From a virus, in the IMG/VR virus record IMGVR_UViG_3300034418_007081, positions 1 to 30,611 of that record: DNA of 30,611 nucleotides; one strand, given 5' to 3'. Both the position numbers and the translations under genes were made by a program. The notes below the pieces were generated by a model, which was not told where the DNA came from, did no database searches, and saw only the letters and a program-made list of their open reading frames with translations. Each line of letters starts with the position of its first letter. Position 1 is the first letter of the stretch. This document shows, one piece after another, positions 11,754 to 16,301 of this stretch.

Positions 11754-11926
11754 TACGCTGCCTCCTCTACAAGAGTTTCAAGTTTTAGTTTTAGAAGTTG
11801 GGGGTTGTTTCTGTAAGTGTTTTGGAAAGTTTTAATAGCCCAACTAGCAACCATACGGTCTTCACTGTTTGCTGGGTATTGCTTTAGGATCTTTGCAACT
11901 ATTTTGAACCGTTCTGCGTTAGTCAT
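11753..11926 (-). CDS. Small unknown early protein, 57 aa
   Basis: This 57-residue frame starts exactly at the ATG that closes the 80-bp promoter cassette (11924-12003), so its expression signals are clear. It begins MTNAERFKIVAKILKQYP, is helical and basic throughout, and ends KLKLETLVEEAA. Its TAA overlaps the next start (TAATG). The family is not recognised; the size and charge would fit a small regulator or host-protein inhibitor, but nothing in the sequence proves that. Confidence 0.75.
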   Translation of the reverse strand: MTNAERFKIVAKILKQYPANSEDRMVASWAIKTFQNTYRNNPQLLKLKLETLVEEAA

Positions 11927-12003
11927 TTTGTATTCTCCTAGTTCGTTTGTTTAACTTATTCTTTATAATAACACGGTATTGCTACCTGTCAACCTTTTTT
12001 ATT
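11924..12003 (-). repeat. 80-bp promoter cassette, copy 1
   Basis: This is the first of three identical 80-bp copies. Read on the minus strand it holds an A-tract, TTGACA (11987-11992), the palindromic core GGTAGCAATACC filling the spacer (11975-11986), TATTAT (16-base spacing), an untranslated leader, CTAGGAGAATACAAA as ribosome-binding region and finally the ATG of the next gene. Confidence 0.95.
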
Positions 12004-12193: not shown

Positions 12194-12420
12194 TACGCTG
12201 TCTCCTCTGTAATAACATCCCAAGCATTGAAGTCATCATACTCAACACCAACACGCAAACACGCCATTTCTTTTACAGTGTCAGCATCATCAAAGTATTC
12301 ACCATAACCACTGTCAATGTAAAGAGCAGTTTCAGCATCACTCATTACAATCTTGTTCAGTAGATTGCCAGTCTGTGGGCAATAGTTCATCATTACAAAG
12401 TTGTCTAGTTGCTGTGTCAT
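12193..12420 (-). CDS. Small acidic early protein, 75 aa
   Basis: This 75-residue, strongly acidic protein starts exactly at the ATG closing promoter cassette copy 2. It begins MTQQLDNFVMMNYCPQTGN and includes SDAETALYIDSGYGEYFDDAD and a tail with EYDDFNAWDVITEETA. The net negative charge is high for its size, as in DNA-mimic or anti-host proteins of phages, but that comparison rests on composition only. The family is not recognised. It is coupled to the following gene by TAATG. Confidence 0.72.
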   Translation of the reverse strand: MTQQLDNFVMMNYCPQTGNLLNKIVMSDAETALYIDSGYGEYFDDADTVKEMACLRVGVEYDDFNAWDVITEETA

Positions 12421-12497
12421 TTTGTATTCTCCTAGTTCGTTTGTTTAACTTATTCTTTATAATAACACGGTATTGCTACCTGTCAACCTTTTTTATT
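12418..12497 (-). repeat. 80-bp promoter cassette, copy 2
   Basis: This copy is identical in all 80 bases to the copies at 11924 and 13687. The -35 region overlaps the end of the upstream 133-residue gene: the cassette's AAGGTTGACAGGTAG is read as its last codons and stop. The operator core is at 12469-12480. Confidence 0.95.
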
Positions 12498-12888: not shown

Positions 12889-13689
12889 CTAGTTCGTTAC
12901 CTTTATGGCGCTTGTTTCTTTAGAATATTTTGGATCTATAACGGTTTCCGATAGTTGCATGTATTTTTTAATATCACCTTTTCGATAAGCGTTGCATATC
13001 CGTAGTTGCTCAACACTCATTTGATCGTCTCTAATATAAGTCATTGCATAAAATGTTAAGTGATGTGTTGCGTTATCTGCAGGTGTTACTGTAAACTGTC
13101 GTTTTTTATAAGTCAGATTTATATTCAGAGAGTTCTGGCCTATAGCACCATGGCCCAAGAACGCACCTTGTTTTAGAGGCAATAAGTAATCTTTTCTGTA
13201 TGAAACGCCGTCGTCTGTGCGTTTTATTTTAGATGGTGGCGGCAAATGAACAATATTTTCGATTTCTTCTATGTCAATAAAAGTTCCTGTTCTTTCACGG
13301 TATCTACCAAAAGCGTGTGGTGTTATTTTAACACAGCCTAGTTTGTCTGTAATAGTCCAGTTTGCTCTGTTTTTTAACAAAAGTTTTCTACTGACAACAT
13401 AACAATGCAAAGGGTTTCCCAAATATTTGTCAAGTTGCCAATACCGTTTACCTGTTTGCCAAAATGGTAAACGGTATTGATACCGTTTACCTGTTTGCGG
13501 TATTTTACCTTGTGCCATAATCTGCAAATCTTTTTCATCGTCTTTCAATGTGCGTGGATTAAATATTCCTACTTTGGCAAAAGCAAGTTTGAAACTACGC
13601 ATAGCCTCTTCGTCTTTTAAAAGGTCATTCCACATGTCAGAGTTTATCATGTCCAACTCGTCTTTGCTAAAAGTTTCCATATCGTTCAT
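12889..13689 (-). CDS. Unknown 266-aa early protein with embedded palindrome; possible initiator or DUF4258-like
   Basis: This is the largest unrecognised early protein and starts at the ATG closing promoter cassette copy 3. Residues about 63-85 contain a short peptide repeat (QTGKRYQYRLPFWQTGKRYW) created by a 19-bp DNA direct repeat flanking a 26-bp palindrome. Residues about 120-150 read KITPHAFGRYRERTGTFIDI, resembling the 'HA..R..ER' start of DUF4258/RelE-like folds. The following strands (SYRKDYLLPL, LNINLTYKKRQFTVTPAD) could complete such a fold. Repeats inside a gene recall lambda O and its iterons, so an initiator role is an alternative. Neither assignment is secure. Confidence 0.6.
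   Translation of the reverse strand: MNDMETFSKDELDMINSDMWNDLLKDEEAMRSFKLAFAKVGIFNPRTLKDDEKDLQIMAQGKIPQTGKRYQYRLPFWQTGKRYWQLDKYLGNPLHCYVVSRKLLLKNRANWTITDKLGCVKITPHAFGRYRERTGTFIDIEEIENIVHLPPPSKIKRTDDGVSYRKDYLLPLKQGAFLGHGAIGQNSLNINLTYKKRQFTVTPADNATHHLTFYAMTYIRDDQMSVEQLRICNAYRKGDIKKYMQLSETVIDPKYSKETSAIKVTN
13441..13498. repeat. Iteron-like direct repeats around a 26-bp palindrome
   Basis: The 19-mer ATACCGTTTACCTGTTTGC occurs at 13441-13459 and 13480-13498. Between them a perfect palindrome (13466-13491) has arms GGTAAACGGTAT and ATACCGTTTACC around TG. Its centre, GGTATTGATACC, differs by one base from the operator core in the three promoter cassettes (GGTATTGCTACC). Confidence 0.92.
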
Positions 13690-13766
13690 TTTGTATTCTC
13701 CTAGTTCGTTTGTTTAACTTATTCTTTATAATAACACGGTATTGCTACCTGTCAACCTTTTTTATT
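13687..13766 (-). repeat. 80-bp promoter cassette, copy 3
   Basis: This is the third identical copy, driving the 266-residue gene and the 133-residue gene behind it. The operator core is at 13738-13749, directly abutting the -35. Confidence 0.95.
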
Positions 13767-13767
13767 A

Positions 13768-14094
13768 TCATCTTGATGCATGATATTCGGTGTCCAAAAC
13801 ACTGTGTCCACGATTGGTCATACACAGTTTTAGAACCCGTTTAAAGTTGTATTCCTTCTCGTCCAACAAATACAAACTTGCTGGGCGAACAAACCAGTTA
13901 TACCAAGCCTTGGGTATATCTGTGATTTTGGCGTTCTCGTGTGCAATACGCAAACAGGTGTCCAAATCATCTTCATAGCGTAGTGCTACTTCTGGACTAC
14001 GGGCACCTCCACTGTCTACTACTGTGCGAGTGCCCACGCCACTACACCCTGCGAGTGTAGCGGCAATGATTACGGTGGGGATTATTTTACGCAT
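13768..14094 (-). CDS. Small lipoprotein
   Basis: This 108-residue protein begins MRKIIPTVIIAATLAGCSG: two positive residues, a hydrophobic stretch and a lipobox (LAGC) with Cys17 as the predicted lipidated residue. The mature part has two further cysteines (DTCLRIAHENAKI and KLCMTNRGHSVL), probably a disulfide in the periplasm. The closing 'C...RGH.VL' pattern is often seen in short bacterial and phage lipoproteins. It is coupled to the gene before it. A role in superinfection exclusion or as a spanin-like partner is possible but not shown. Confidence 0.75.
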   Translation of the reverse strand: MRKIIPTVIIAATLAGCSGVGTRTVVDSGGARSPEVALRYEDDLDTCLRIAHENAKITDIPKAWYNWFVRPASLYLLDEKEYNFKRVLKLCMTNRGHSVLDTEYHASR

Positions 14095-14099
14095 AACTA

Positions 14100-14444
14100 T
14101 TAGCCTGCCATTCGATATTCTAACCTGTCGCCGTTATCCATGCAAGCAAGATGAATATCTATCTTGTTGTTGCTTCTAGGCACATTATAGACATGTAGAT
14201 TATATACAATAACCTTACCTGTGTCTCGATTGTGTAAGAAAAAGTAATGCTCCGGAAATATTGACACTAGATTTGATTTACAGTTGTCACTTTGGATTGA
14301 TCTAACTATCTTTACCAAGACTTTTAAATCATCCCCATCCCAATCAATAGCGCGATGTGTATCTTCTAGATGAAGGTTTCCGTCCATTGCGTCATTGTTG
14401 ATGCTCATTTTGTAGTATGTTGAAATAGAATATTTAGGTGCCAT
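14100..14444 (-). CDS. Unknown early protein, 114 aa
   Basis: This 114-residue protein is the first minus-strand gene of the divergent region. It follows the promoter at 14487-14515 and AGGAG eight bases before ATG 14444. It contains HLEDTHRAIDWDGDDLKVLV, IFPEHYFFLHNRDTGKVIVY and NLHVYNVPRSNNKIDIHL, which looks like a compact alpha/beta fold with no recognised motif. The lipoprotein gene follows five bases after its stop. The operator in its promoter suggests tight regulation. Confidence 0.7.
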   Translation of the reverse strand: MAPKYSISTYYKMSINNDAMDGNLHLEDTHRAIDWDGDDLKVLVKIVRSIQSDNCKSNLVSIFPEHYFFLHNRDTGKVIVYNLHVYNVPRSNNKIDIHLACMDNGDRLEYRMAG

Positions 14445-14562: not shown

Positions 14563-14591
14563 TTGACTTCTGTGGTAAATACTCGTATAAT
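14563..14591 (+). promoter_or_regulatory. Plus-strand sigma70 promoter
   Basis: TTGACT (14563-14568) and TATAAT (14586-14591) are separated by 17 bases, preceded by T- and A-rich tracts. It faces the only plus-strand genes and is divergent from the promoter at 14487-14515, with about 50 bases between the two -35 boxes. Confidence 0.82.
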
Positions 14592-14602
14592 AAGGAATAC
14601 TA

Positions 14603-14686
14603 ATGGCACATAAGTTTTTAATCCTCGCAACATTCTTAACTGGGTGTTATACAGGAATAATAGTTACTATAATAATATTAGGATAA
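14603..14686 (+). CDS. 27-aa hydrophobic peptide with lipobox-like signal
   Basis: A 27-codon frame lies directly after the plus-strand promoter, with AAGGA six bases before the ATG. It encodes a short positive start (MAHK), a hydrophobic stretch ending in FLTGC (a lipobox-like sequence, Cys15) and a second hydrophobic tail rich in isoleucine. It ends three bases before the next start codon. A tiny membrane or lipidated peptide is the plain reading; holin-like or toxin-like action is speculation. It is shorter than usual annotation cut-offs. Confidence 0.55.
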   Translation: MAHKFLILATFLTGCYTGIIVTIIILG

Positions 14687-14689
14687 TCG

Positions 14690-15175
14690 ATGACACAAGT
14701 AAAACGAGATCCAATAAACGACTGGACCAAGACAACCCGTAGCCTTTGTGCTATGAGTGCTCGTGCTGACGCTAAACGCCGAGCAAACAGTGAATGGTGG
14801 AAGCGGAGTCGTTGGGCTAATCCAGAGCAACAAGCACAGGATACCTTACAACAACAACTTGTTGGCTATTGGGCTCGAACTAAAGGTGTTACACTACAAG
14901 ACATAAACAATCCAGATATTTCCTTGTTACTACGGATTCGTGAAGATATATTTGATATGCTTGACGCAAGTCAGCAAGCAAGATGGAGTTCATATTGGGG
15001 TCAAGTATTCACACAAGGCAAAAAACTTTCAGGCAAAAAACTAAACACACTATACAAAGACATTGAACTGGCACAACAACGGCACACTATTAGGCACAAA
15101 CGAAATCCCGAAAAACAGAATCAAGATATGACGGTAAAGGGTTCTGCGCTCGATCAAACTCCTCCTTGGGATTGA
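14690..15175 (+). CDS. Unknown plus-strand protein, 161 aa
   Basis: This is the only sizeable gene on the plus strand. It is basic and helical, with an arginine/tryptophan-rich section (SARADAKRRANSEWWKRSRWANPEQQ), a central segment VTLQDINNPDISLLLRIREDIFDML and a lysine-rich stretch (GKKLSGKKLNTLYKD). The C-terminus ends ALDQTPPWD, a proline, aromatic and acidic tip that recalls partner-binding tails of DNA-processing proteins. The composition suggests nucleic-acid binding. The family is not recognised. Its transcript should end at the terminator at 15345-15365. Confidence 0.72.
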   Translation: MTQVKRDPINDWTKTTRSLCAMSARADAKRRANSEWWKRSRWANPEQQAQDTLQQQLVGYWARTKGVTLQDINNPDISLLLRIREDIFDMLDASQQARWSSYWGQVFTQGKKLSGKKLNTLYKDIELAQQRHTIRHKRNPEKQNQDMTVKGSALDQTPPWD

Positions 15176-15234
15176 TCAACAGAGTGGTATGCCGGGGCTG
15201 CCCATATATGGGTGCGAGTTATACATAGTCAAAC

Positions 15235-15324
15235 TTCTCGCTTAAATGTTTCAAGGAGTTCAAGCGCCTTGCCTATGAGGTTAAATGTAGGCACCGAGAT
15301 GATGTTTCGGTAAGAAAGCGAGAA
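15235..15324 (+). ncRNA. Candidate cloverleaf-like RNA fold
   Basis: A 9-bp closing stem (TTCTCGCTT 15235-15243 with AAGCGAGAA 15316-15324) encloses three consecutive hairpins: CAAGG/CCTTG (15252-15271), CCTA/TAGG (15272-15291) and ACCGA/TCGGT (15293-15311). It is not a recognisable tRNA: loop sizes, an anticodon arm and a CCA position do not fit. It would lie in the 3' untranslated part of the plus-strand transcript, just before the terminator. Confidence 0.4.
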
Positions 15325-15391
15325 CGGGTAATACAGATCACATCACCTACAGTGTAGGTTTTTTTAAGTGTGTGGTTTGTATTATCCGTTC
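15322..15391 (+). repeat. Inverted repeat enclosing the plus-strand terminator
   Basis: GAACGGGTAATAC (15322-15334) pairs with GTATTATCCGTTC (15379-15391) over 13 positions; the single departure is a G-U pair in plus-strand RNA. The enclosed 44 bases contain the intrinsic terminator. The arms share the core GAACGG-T-A-AC with the inverted repeat at 15634-15745. Confidence 0.85.
15345..15365 (+). terminator. Intrinsic terminator of the plus-strand operon
   Basis: The stem ACCTAC/GTAGGT (15345-15350 with 15354-15359) is followed directly by a run of T residues to 15365. It lies about 170 bases after the stop of the 161-residue gene. Confidence 0.82.
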
Positions 15392-15564
15392 TTTTGACTT
15401 TTTTACCGAGATGATGATTTATATCTAACTCCTTTAAAGATCACAAGTAATACATCGAACAAAACGAGTGTAACGAAGTTTTGTGATGATGTAGATGAAC
15501 GAAGTTCATCTCTCTACTTAAACCTATATAAAATAATCATTTGGAGTTCGAGCCGTGATTGAAT

Positions 15565-15603
15565 AAAGAAAAACCCCTGTTAGGGCTTATACTAACAGGG
15601 GTT
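15565..15603 (-). terminator. Intrinsic terminator of the structural operon
   Basis: On the minus strand, AACCCCTGTTAG (15603-15592) pairs with CTAACAGGGGTT (15583-15572), 12 perfect base pairs with an 8-base loop, followed by TTTCTTTATT. It should end transcripts that come through the tail genes to 15864. Confidence 0.88.
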
Positions 15604-15633
15604 ACAAATGCCGTTATAACATAAACGGAGTTT

Positions 15634-15745
15634 GAACGGATTACACAACTGATTGTCGGAATATAAAAAAATGGCACTTTTTTAAGTTAAACAATAGTCA
15701 CACCCAATATTAGAATATCTAAGAAGGGAGTTGTGTATTCCGTTC
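15634..15745. repeat. Long-range 17-bp inverted repeat
   Basis: GAACGGATTACACAACT (15634-15650) and AGTTGTGTATTCCGTTC (15729-15745) are inverted repeats matching at 16 of 17 positions, 78 bases apart. With the pair at 15322-15391 they give four copies of a GAACGGRTWAYAC motif in alternating orientation. Confidence 0.88.
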
Positions 15746-15766
15746 ACTTTTATTTATTATCTGTGA

Positions 15767-15855
15767 GAACTGGGTAAAACTTTTTGTGTGTTTAGGGAAG
15801 CGACTGTGACAGTTGCCTGCCACAGTCTATTACCCAGTTCCTCGTGCCGAAGCAC
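15767..15855 (-). ncRNA. Minus-sense structured 3' UTR RNA with GNRA and UUCG hairpins
   Basis: On the minus strand a GUGC-UUCG-GCAC hairpin (15855-15844) is followed by a perfect 11-bp stem GAACUGGGUAA/UUACCCAGUUC (15840-15830 with 15777-15767). The stem encloses an 11-bp hairpin GACUGUGGCAG/CUGUCACAGUC capped by a GCAA tetraloop (15827-15802). One pair is G-U on this strand but A-C on the other, which favours a minus-sense RNA. It begins right after the stop codon at 15864. Confidence 0.62.
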
Positions 15856-15863
15856 ACTGTTAT

Positions 15864-16301
15864 TTAACTTGCAGACGCAGTTGCGCCCAGTGCAACTACT
15901 TTCCAATCTGTTCCGTTGTATACCACTAAACATTCAGTGCCAGCATTGCCATTTGTTGTGTAAGCAATATCACCTTCTTGTGGTGTTGGGATTGTAGTGC
16001 CTAACTGCGCCAGTGTAAGTGGTGTTAGATTGATTACATCTTCTACTTGCACACGATTTGTGTCGGGTTGTAGTGTTAGATCAATGCCTGAACTACTTAC
16101 AAGTGTGTTTGGTAGGTATGTGTTTGCAACTCGTAAACTTGCGTCAAGAGGTGCTACACCATTTGCTTCACCTCTACCATTGATTACATTTGCAAGTTCA
16201 TCCAGTGCTGCCTTGATATCTGCTCTTGCGTTTGCAGGACTATCGCTTGCACTGTCCATGTTTGTTGTTACAATATTTGTGTCATCTGTGGGCCATGCCA
16301 T
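15864..16301 (-). CDS. Short tail fibre protein with WPT/ARADI anchor
   Basis: This 145-residue protein begins MAWPTDDTNIVTTNMDSASDSPANARADIKAAL, the same N-terminal module as the fibres at 2821, 3546 and 16313. Its C-terminus (PQEGDIAYTTNGNAGTECLVVYNGTDWKVV) matches the 'CL.VY.GT.WK' ending of the neighbouring gene. It is therefore a minimal anchor with a short ending. It is the last gene of the structural operon. AAGGAG lies seven bases before ATG 16301. Confidence 0.72.
   Translation of the reverse strand: MAWPTDDTNIVTTNMDSASDSPANARADIKAALDELANVINGRGEANGVAPLDASLRVANTYLPNTLVSSSGIDLTLQPDTNRVQVEDVINLTPLTLAQLGTTIPTPQEGDIAYTTNGNAGTECLVVYNGTDWKVVALGATASAS

Follow-up and report, generated by a model that had tools for sequence, protein, structure and literature searches.

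A new family of structured RNAs paired with small basic protein genes in marine phages and in Betaproteobacteria from freshwater

We analysed a virus record of 30,611 bases (hereafter the window, meaning the whole stretch of DNA). Comparative analysis shows that it carries a member of a new RNA family. The RNA has predicted long-range tertiary pairing, is under selection on the plus strand and is linked to a gene for a small basic protein. There are two kinds of carrier: phages and bacterial elements. Neither the RNA family nor the protein family has known relatives, though their mechanism may yet prove to be a familiar one. Probably, the two form an RNA-protein machine, the binding and function of which we infer.

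The two ends of the window split the large terminase gene, and a contig with 99-100% identity spans the missing ~0.6 kb. Hence, the window covers nearly all of a circularly permuted phage genome of ~31 kb. Almost all genes are on the minus strand; the clear exception is an ORF at positions 14690-15175 (plus strand). The adjoining 688 bases (15176-15863) were originally predicted to be a single gene-free locus with structure on both strands. As predicted, the ORF list of the window has no complete ORF of at least 60 aa wholly within this gap (ORF 15788-15997 runs antisense to the tail gene). Structure on both strands was also confirmed. Fold energies were about nine standard deviations better than dinucleotide shuffles (z -9.0 for the plus strand and -8.9 for the minus strand), and 0 of 20 shuffles equalled either value. 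The palindrome, minus terminator, plus terminator-like site, long-range inverted repeats and minus-sense tetraloop hairpin named at the time are all present. The proposed unity and limits of the locus did not hold. The fold signal lies in the left and right parts, the middle (15443-15571) being near chance (z about -1), and the RNA starts at 15116, inside the upstream ORF. The gap is two neighbouring units on different strands.

The left unit includes a plus-strand structured RNA of ~300 nt (about 15116-15441, 3′ end approximate) with helices P1-P4 and P6 and two pseudoknots. Hairpin P1 (15116-15146) pairs CAGAATC with GGTTCTG around the loop AAGATATGACGGTAAAG. Helix P2 (15147-15186) combines CGCTC/GAGTG and GATCAA/TTGATC; its stem sequence varies and pairing is retained. 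The P2 loop contains the 5′ strand of pseudoknot PK2, formed by CTCCTTG (15162-15168) and CAAGGAG (15252-15258). Hairpin P3 (15201-15212) is the palindrome CCCATATATGGG, and P4 (15214-15241; GCGAG/CTCGC) presents the conserved loop TTATACATAGTCAAACTT. The long hairpin P6 (15307-15409) spans the inverted repeat 15321-15342/15371-15392 and has a U7 run (15360-15366) near its tip. In the window, P6 has 30 Watson-Crick and four plus-strand G-U pairs, with no other mismatch in its two main stems. The second pseudoknot, PK1, joins GACGG in the P1 loop (15130-15134) to CCGTT on the P6 3′ arm (15386-15390) and is short in the window (5 bp). Two terminators facing each other had been proposed for the gap. 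The minus-strand terminator is genuine. The plus-strand site (15345-15366) is instead the apical part of P6, a hairpin with a 3′ arm conserved beyond the T run. Small hairpins with C-GAA-G loops (15451-15511, plus strand) perhaps form the 3′ end of the plus transcript; similar ones follow the RNA in relatives L116-L118 and L126, and this region folds no better than chance. Members have in common P1, a 7-bp stem with a 17-18 nt loop containing TATGACGG or GGGG, together with P2, a small P3, the ~5-bp P4 with its conserved loop, and the long hairpin P6. The window carries all family features, namely the P1 and P4 conserved loops, PK1, PK2, a long P6 and a basic ORF directly upstream.

Pairing was assessed across 17 members, ignoring kinship. 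Standard pairs were found in 119/119 cases for P1 (permutation mean 69.7), 84/85 for P4 (61.9) and 95/102 for PK1 (85.6, with 0 of 100,000 permutations as high). Variants of PK1 include GACGGC/GCCGTC, GATGGC/GCCATC, GACGAC/GTCGTC and GGGGTAA/TTGCCCC. Those of PK2, beyond the window, include CTGATACAG/CTGTATCAG, CTGTAGAT/ATCTACAG and ACGTAACAG/CTGTTACGT. In alignment A9 (20 rows, aligned on sequence and not fitted to structure, the structure itself being drawn from these sequences), 85.9% of cells pair, compared with 70.7 for shuffled and no more than 50.1 for slid versions. Its covariation score reaches 0.494, against 0.203 shuffled and at most 0.157 slid. Changes on both sides affect 21 of 26 pairs, and all seven pairs of PK2 and all five of P2b are compensated. 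Helix P5, which is shifted by one column between subgroups, reaches only 54%. The helices counted hold 28 plus-strand G-U pairs and one A-C mismatch, the latter equating to G-U on the minus strand. Hence, the left-half element acts as RNA. We conclude that these comparisons show a predicted plus-strand structure to be under selection as RNA. The original proposal of a multi-domain phage RNA is thereby upheld for the left half: aligned relatives share its helices and pseudoknots, with abundant compensating changes. The 3′ strand of PK1 can also pair with the P6 5′ arm. Hence, PK1 may mark an alternative conformation. A kissing interaction between the P1 and P4 loops was dropped, as it pairs in group B and fails across groups. 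Four of five GAACGG motifs fall in the gap, two of them being the P6 arms. An iteron or recombination-site reading of the four was rejected because their total in the window (3 mismatches) is not above chance.

Phage relatives were sought among 77 IMG/VR loci by comparing the sequence that lies beyond the orthologous tail-fibre gene. One match was informative (L098; blastn, 111/150 identical, E 6e-22) and spans the ORF end and gap start. This locus encodes a homologue of the basic ORF and shares hairpin P4, with its loop TTATACATAGTCAAAC unchanged and two compensatory stem pairs. The cassette and the tail gene share a strand in L098 but lie on opposite strands in the window. Hence, the cassette is a unit of its own. 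Further phage members came from a DNA pattern, a three-protein alignment and covariance model R1. This model matches the window, which is in its training set, at 15116-15241 (106 bits, E 1e-23). Two loci, L027 and L051, emerged solely through the RNA model, and both have a small ORF directly upstream. A 17-mer match in L113, inside a coding gene, was discarded as chance. About 20 distinct phage relatives of the RNA were found. In nine RNA-carrying phage records, the genes for portal, capsid, scaffold, tape-measure and terminase have counterparts in the window, most of them 30-55% identical. These carriers are a clade of small marine phages (25-32 kb) with one structural core, and in most of them the RNA is codirectional with the late genes. 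By portal, the closest named phages to the window are Phage DSL-LC06 (48%) and Pelagibacter phages HTVC202P, 111P, 026P and 112P (45-47%). They have the same structural core; the RNA was not found in DSL-LC06, HTVC202P or HTVC111P. Searches of named phages and plasmids with blastn and tblastn gave no match. Locus L013 and DSL-LC06 are the closest relatives with a syntenic gap, gene-poor in DSL-LC06, and neither has a detectable RNA copy. In L013, the gap (13858-14313) is convergent and strongly folding; its terminator sits at the corresponding position, and there are opposing early genes. Several phages have a small zinc-ribbon-like gene (CQFCG...CKSC) immediately ahead of the ORF-RNA cassette (L148:760-1035, L144:12967-13248 and L115). 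One phage that already carries the RNA has a weak second R1 match (G029:C1:15846-15947, minus strand; 15 bits, E 0.012), possibly a degenerate copy.

The exact 19-base P1-loop pattern was searched for in 257 Gb of bacterial and archaeal genomes. It occurs at 15 places, where we estimate about two by chance; all are in Betaproteobacteria and all score as members. A second model, R2, detected three more genomes outside its training set (E 1e-21 to 1e-23). In total, 18 betaproteobacterial members of the RNA family were found. Trained without group A, R2 finds L118 (E 1.6e-5) and L116 (E 1.8e-4). Hence, the groups are tied together. R2 gives the window no score, and membership of the window rests on L098 and R1. 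Matches to R2 occur in 5/300 genomes of the order and 3/399 of the phylum, a sporadic distribution typical of mobile DNA. The bacterial context is a DUF6641 gene, the small ORF, the RNA and, in most cases, a short tyrosine recombinase (Pfam Phage_integrase); some loci add DUF6876 and a larger integrase-like gene. The carriers are small integrative elements of Limnohabitans, Polynucleobacter and others, from freshwater; L. parvus II-B4 is one of the Limnohabitans hosts. The portal of the window's phage family was absent from the nine RNA-carrying bacterial genomes searched. One Limnohabitans element (L181, G036:C7) is flanked by porin genes, with ~2.8 kb ahead of the RNA and 4.1 kb behind it. 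A 73-bp direct repeat (96%), its copies 7.0 kb apart, occurs in those porin genes. This is perhaps an integration site, or the porins may simply be paralogous, and the element ends are uncertain. In Polynucleobacter sp. es-MAR-4 (L183), the RNA element adjoins helicase and methylase genes resembling restriction or defence genes.

In the window, a sigma70-like promoter (TTGACT-17-TATAAT, 14563-14591, plus strand), assigned by consensus match only, has 11 of 12 consensus bases. In relatives L098, L133 and L134, a terminator and then a similar promoter directly precede the ORF. Reading the sequence downstream of the window promoter identifies a putative 27-aa membrane- or lipoprotein-like ORF (14603-14686, plus strand; MAHKFLILATFLTGCYTGIIVTIIILG). 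It is followed by the gene for a 161-aa basic helical protein (14690-15175; pI 9.9), which we presume to be the RNA's partner. A small ORF (72-161 aa) is directly upstream of every intact RNA copy examined, and the 12 pI values computed range from 9.7 to 10.5. The phage proteins are homologous (window versus L131, E 1e-9). Their bacterial counterparts are weakly similar to them (E 0.004) and retain the W-x-K-x-x-G start. An AlphaFold model predicts an all-helical fold of ~110 aa (pLDDT 79, pTM 0.47). Its good matches in a viral fold library are solely uncharacterised proteins of uncultured Caudovirales phages. Among 13 members there was no Pfam match, and no PHROG family was assigned. A PDB sequence search found nothing significant, the window protein found no relatives in a single-sequence search, and the window ORF had no match in the phage collection. 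Screening bacterial genomes with the protein pattern also gave no match. The start of P1 relative to the stop-codon end differs between members: 59-62 nt before it in five, 14 nt before in one and 4-19 nt after in five. Hence, the RNA is independent of the coding end.

No known family had been recognised in the gap, and for the left half this still stands. Covariance models in Rfam 15, with GOLLD, ROOL, OLE, HEARO, group I/II introns, tmRNA and 6S among them, gave 0 matches to the window at gathering score. Permissive searches with the window region and 11 relatives returned low-scoring chance matches only, and 12 bacterial loci yielded tRNA and 5S rRNA only. Literature searches found no description of the RNA-protein pair. 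GOLLD, ROOL and OLE are large, highly structured noncoding RNAs, some of them tied to phages (PMC12286853). The RNA described here is likewise highly structured and phage-linked. Unlike them, it is shorter (~300 nt), is tied to one small basic protein and has no Rfam match. The omega RNA of TnpB-type systems (IS200/IS605) is structured, overlapping the 3′ end of its own protein's gene and continuing beyond it. Our RNA does the same, but its protein is small (72-161 aa), helical and without a nuclease match, and in phages is not beside transposon ends. A TnpB system was rejected, given that it requires a RuvC nuclease, that none of the 13 members has a Pfam match and that the fold is all-helical. 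In ColE1, a folded RNA (RNA II) and a small helical RNA-binding protein (Rom) take part in host-dependent replication. A folded RNA and small helical protein, here presumed to bind RNA, are also present in our case. There is no homology, and order and structure differ. Known anti-phage defence and type III toxin-antitoxin systems were set aside because PADLOC, run with three versions of the small protein, returned no defence or toxin match. For phi29-type packaging RNA there is no Rfam homology, and the terminases here are, by eye, of the ordinary large and small type. No reverse transcriptase, the gene expected of a retron or diversity-generating retroelement, was recognised by eye in ORF lists of the window, the early regions of G022 and G023 or the bacterial loci.

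The reading that we favour, held with about even confidence, is that one plus-strand transcript would yield both protein and RNA, and that these would form a ribonucleoprotein acting in trans. Briefly, the left half would be the 3′ part of a self-contained unit of promoter, small basic protein and ~300-nt RNA. Comparison shows the RNA to fold as P1-P4 and the long P6, held by PK1 and PK2; it would be released from the mRNA that encodes the protein, or act at that mRNA's end. The protein would bind it, probably at the conserved P1 and P4 loops. Working in trans, the complex may target some host process, either during infection or to maintain the element. Covariation of P1, P4, PK1 and PK2 and the wobble asymmetry argue for this. 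So do the linkage of RNA and basic, helical protein across marine phages and betaproteobacterial elements, the unit's own promoter, its orientation independent of neighbouring genes and the new genomes found by model. There are also observations against it. First, L013 and DSL-LC06 lack a detectable copy, so the phage clade as a whole does not require the module. Second, P1 and P2 overlap the ORF end in several members, where translation would disturb the fold. Third, PK1 competes with the P6 stem and, by eye, is broken in bacterial member L172. Few RNAs of this size combine two covarying pseudoknots with a dedicated protein, and those that do often prove to be either machines or elaborate regulators. 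Ours has no counterpart in Rfam or in the named phage and plasmid collections searched, and spans marine phages and freshwater Betaproteobacteria. We tentatively raise the possibility that it represents a new class of RNA-protein machine, possibly with an active or catalytic RNA core, by which lytic marine phages and freshwater integrative elements exploit a host process. Given the explicit structural model and cultured Polynucleobacter and Limnohabitans carriers, RNA function is directly testable.

Rather unlikely, in our estimate, is that the RNA is a cis element in the 3′ end of the small protein's mRNA, such as an autoregulatory site or a stability or translation switch, with no trans role. 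The RNA always directly follows the ORF, and overlaps its end in several members. Competition of the P1 loop and P6 5′ arm for the same 3′ strand would suit a switch. However, the fold, with two pseudoknots, is far larger than usual for autoregulation, and the ORF overlap is not conserved, the P1 start ranging between 62 nt upstream and 19 nt downstream of the stop. An RNA primer or RNA-dependent origin like that of ColE1 RNA II, with the small protein as modulator of host-dependent replication, is improbable. By eye, the gene lists of the window and of the early regions of G022 and G023 contain no recognisable replication gene, and phages and small integrative elements, which share the module, both need replication. 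Against this, GC skew does not switch at the RNA, no conserved hybrid-forming stretch was noticed beyond P6, and the same phage clade includes relatives without the RNA. For the left half, neither the wobble asymmetry, which points to RNA rather than DNA, nor the GC skew supports the original suggestion of an origin or packaging site. A feature of DNA only (terminators, a buffer between convergent operons, or a packaging or recombination hairpin site) would suit the position in the window between convergent transcripts with a real minus terminator, and the tyrosine recombinases of bacterial carriers, but is very improbable given the 28 to 1 wobble asymmetry favouring plus-strand RNA, the conserved loops and pseudoknots and the codirectionality with late genes in most phages, termination being a good reading of the right half only.

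The right half corresponds to the end of the minus-strand late operon, with a structured 3′ region and a terminator. Hence, the termination site suggested earlier does exist in this part of the gap. Just after the minus-strand tail gene is a GTGC-TTCG-GCAC (UUCG) hairpin, then nested hairpins, together forming the structured 3′ end of the late transcript (15604-15863), a feature separate from the RNA. A strong intrinsic terminator follows (15603-15572), with a 12-bp stem and then TTTCTTTATT. The minus-strand fold of 15572-15863 has a z of about -7 against mononucleotide shuffles. No informative relatives of this half were found; only a near-identical sequence (L011) covers it. The single informative mismatch counted in a clear stem (15802-15827) is of the opposite kind to those in the left half. 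This fits minus-strand transcripts. The arms of the second long-range inverted repeat (15633-15650/15729-15746) repeat the GAACGG.T motif of the P6 arms.

Other promoter features were seen in the window. Three identical copies of a ~82-bp promoter/leader, in minus sense, are at 11922-12003, 12416-12497 and 13686-13767. Each has a TTGACA-17-TTATAA box, with the palindrome GGTAGCAATACC between boxes, then AGGAG and ATG. This looks like a shared operator-promoter of early genes. The plus-strand promoter at 14563-14591 is part of a divergent promoter region. Its minus-strand counterpart (14515-14487) has a short inverted repeat, ACTATTACAAGTAGT, between boxes.
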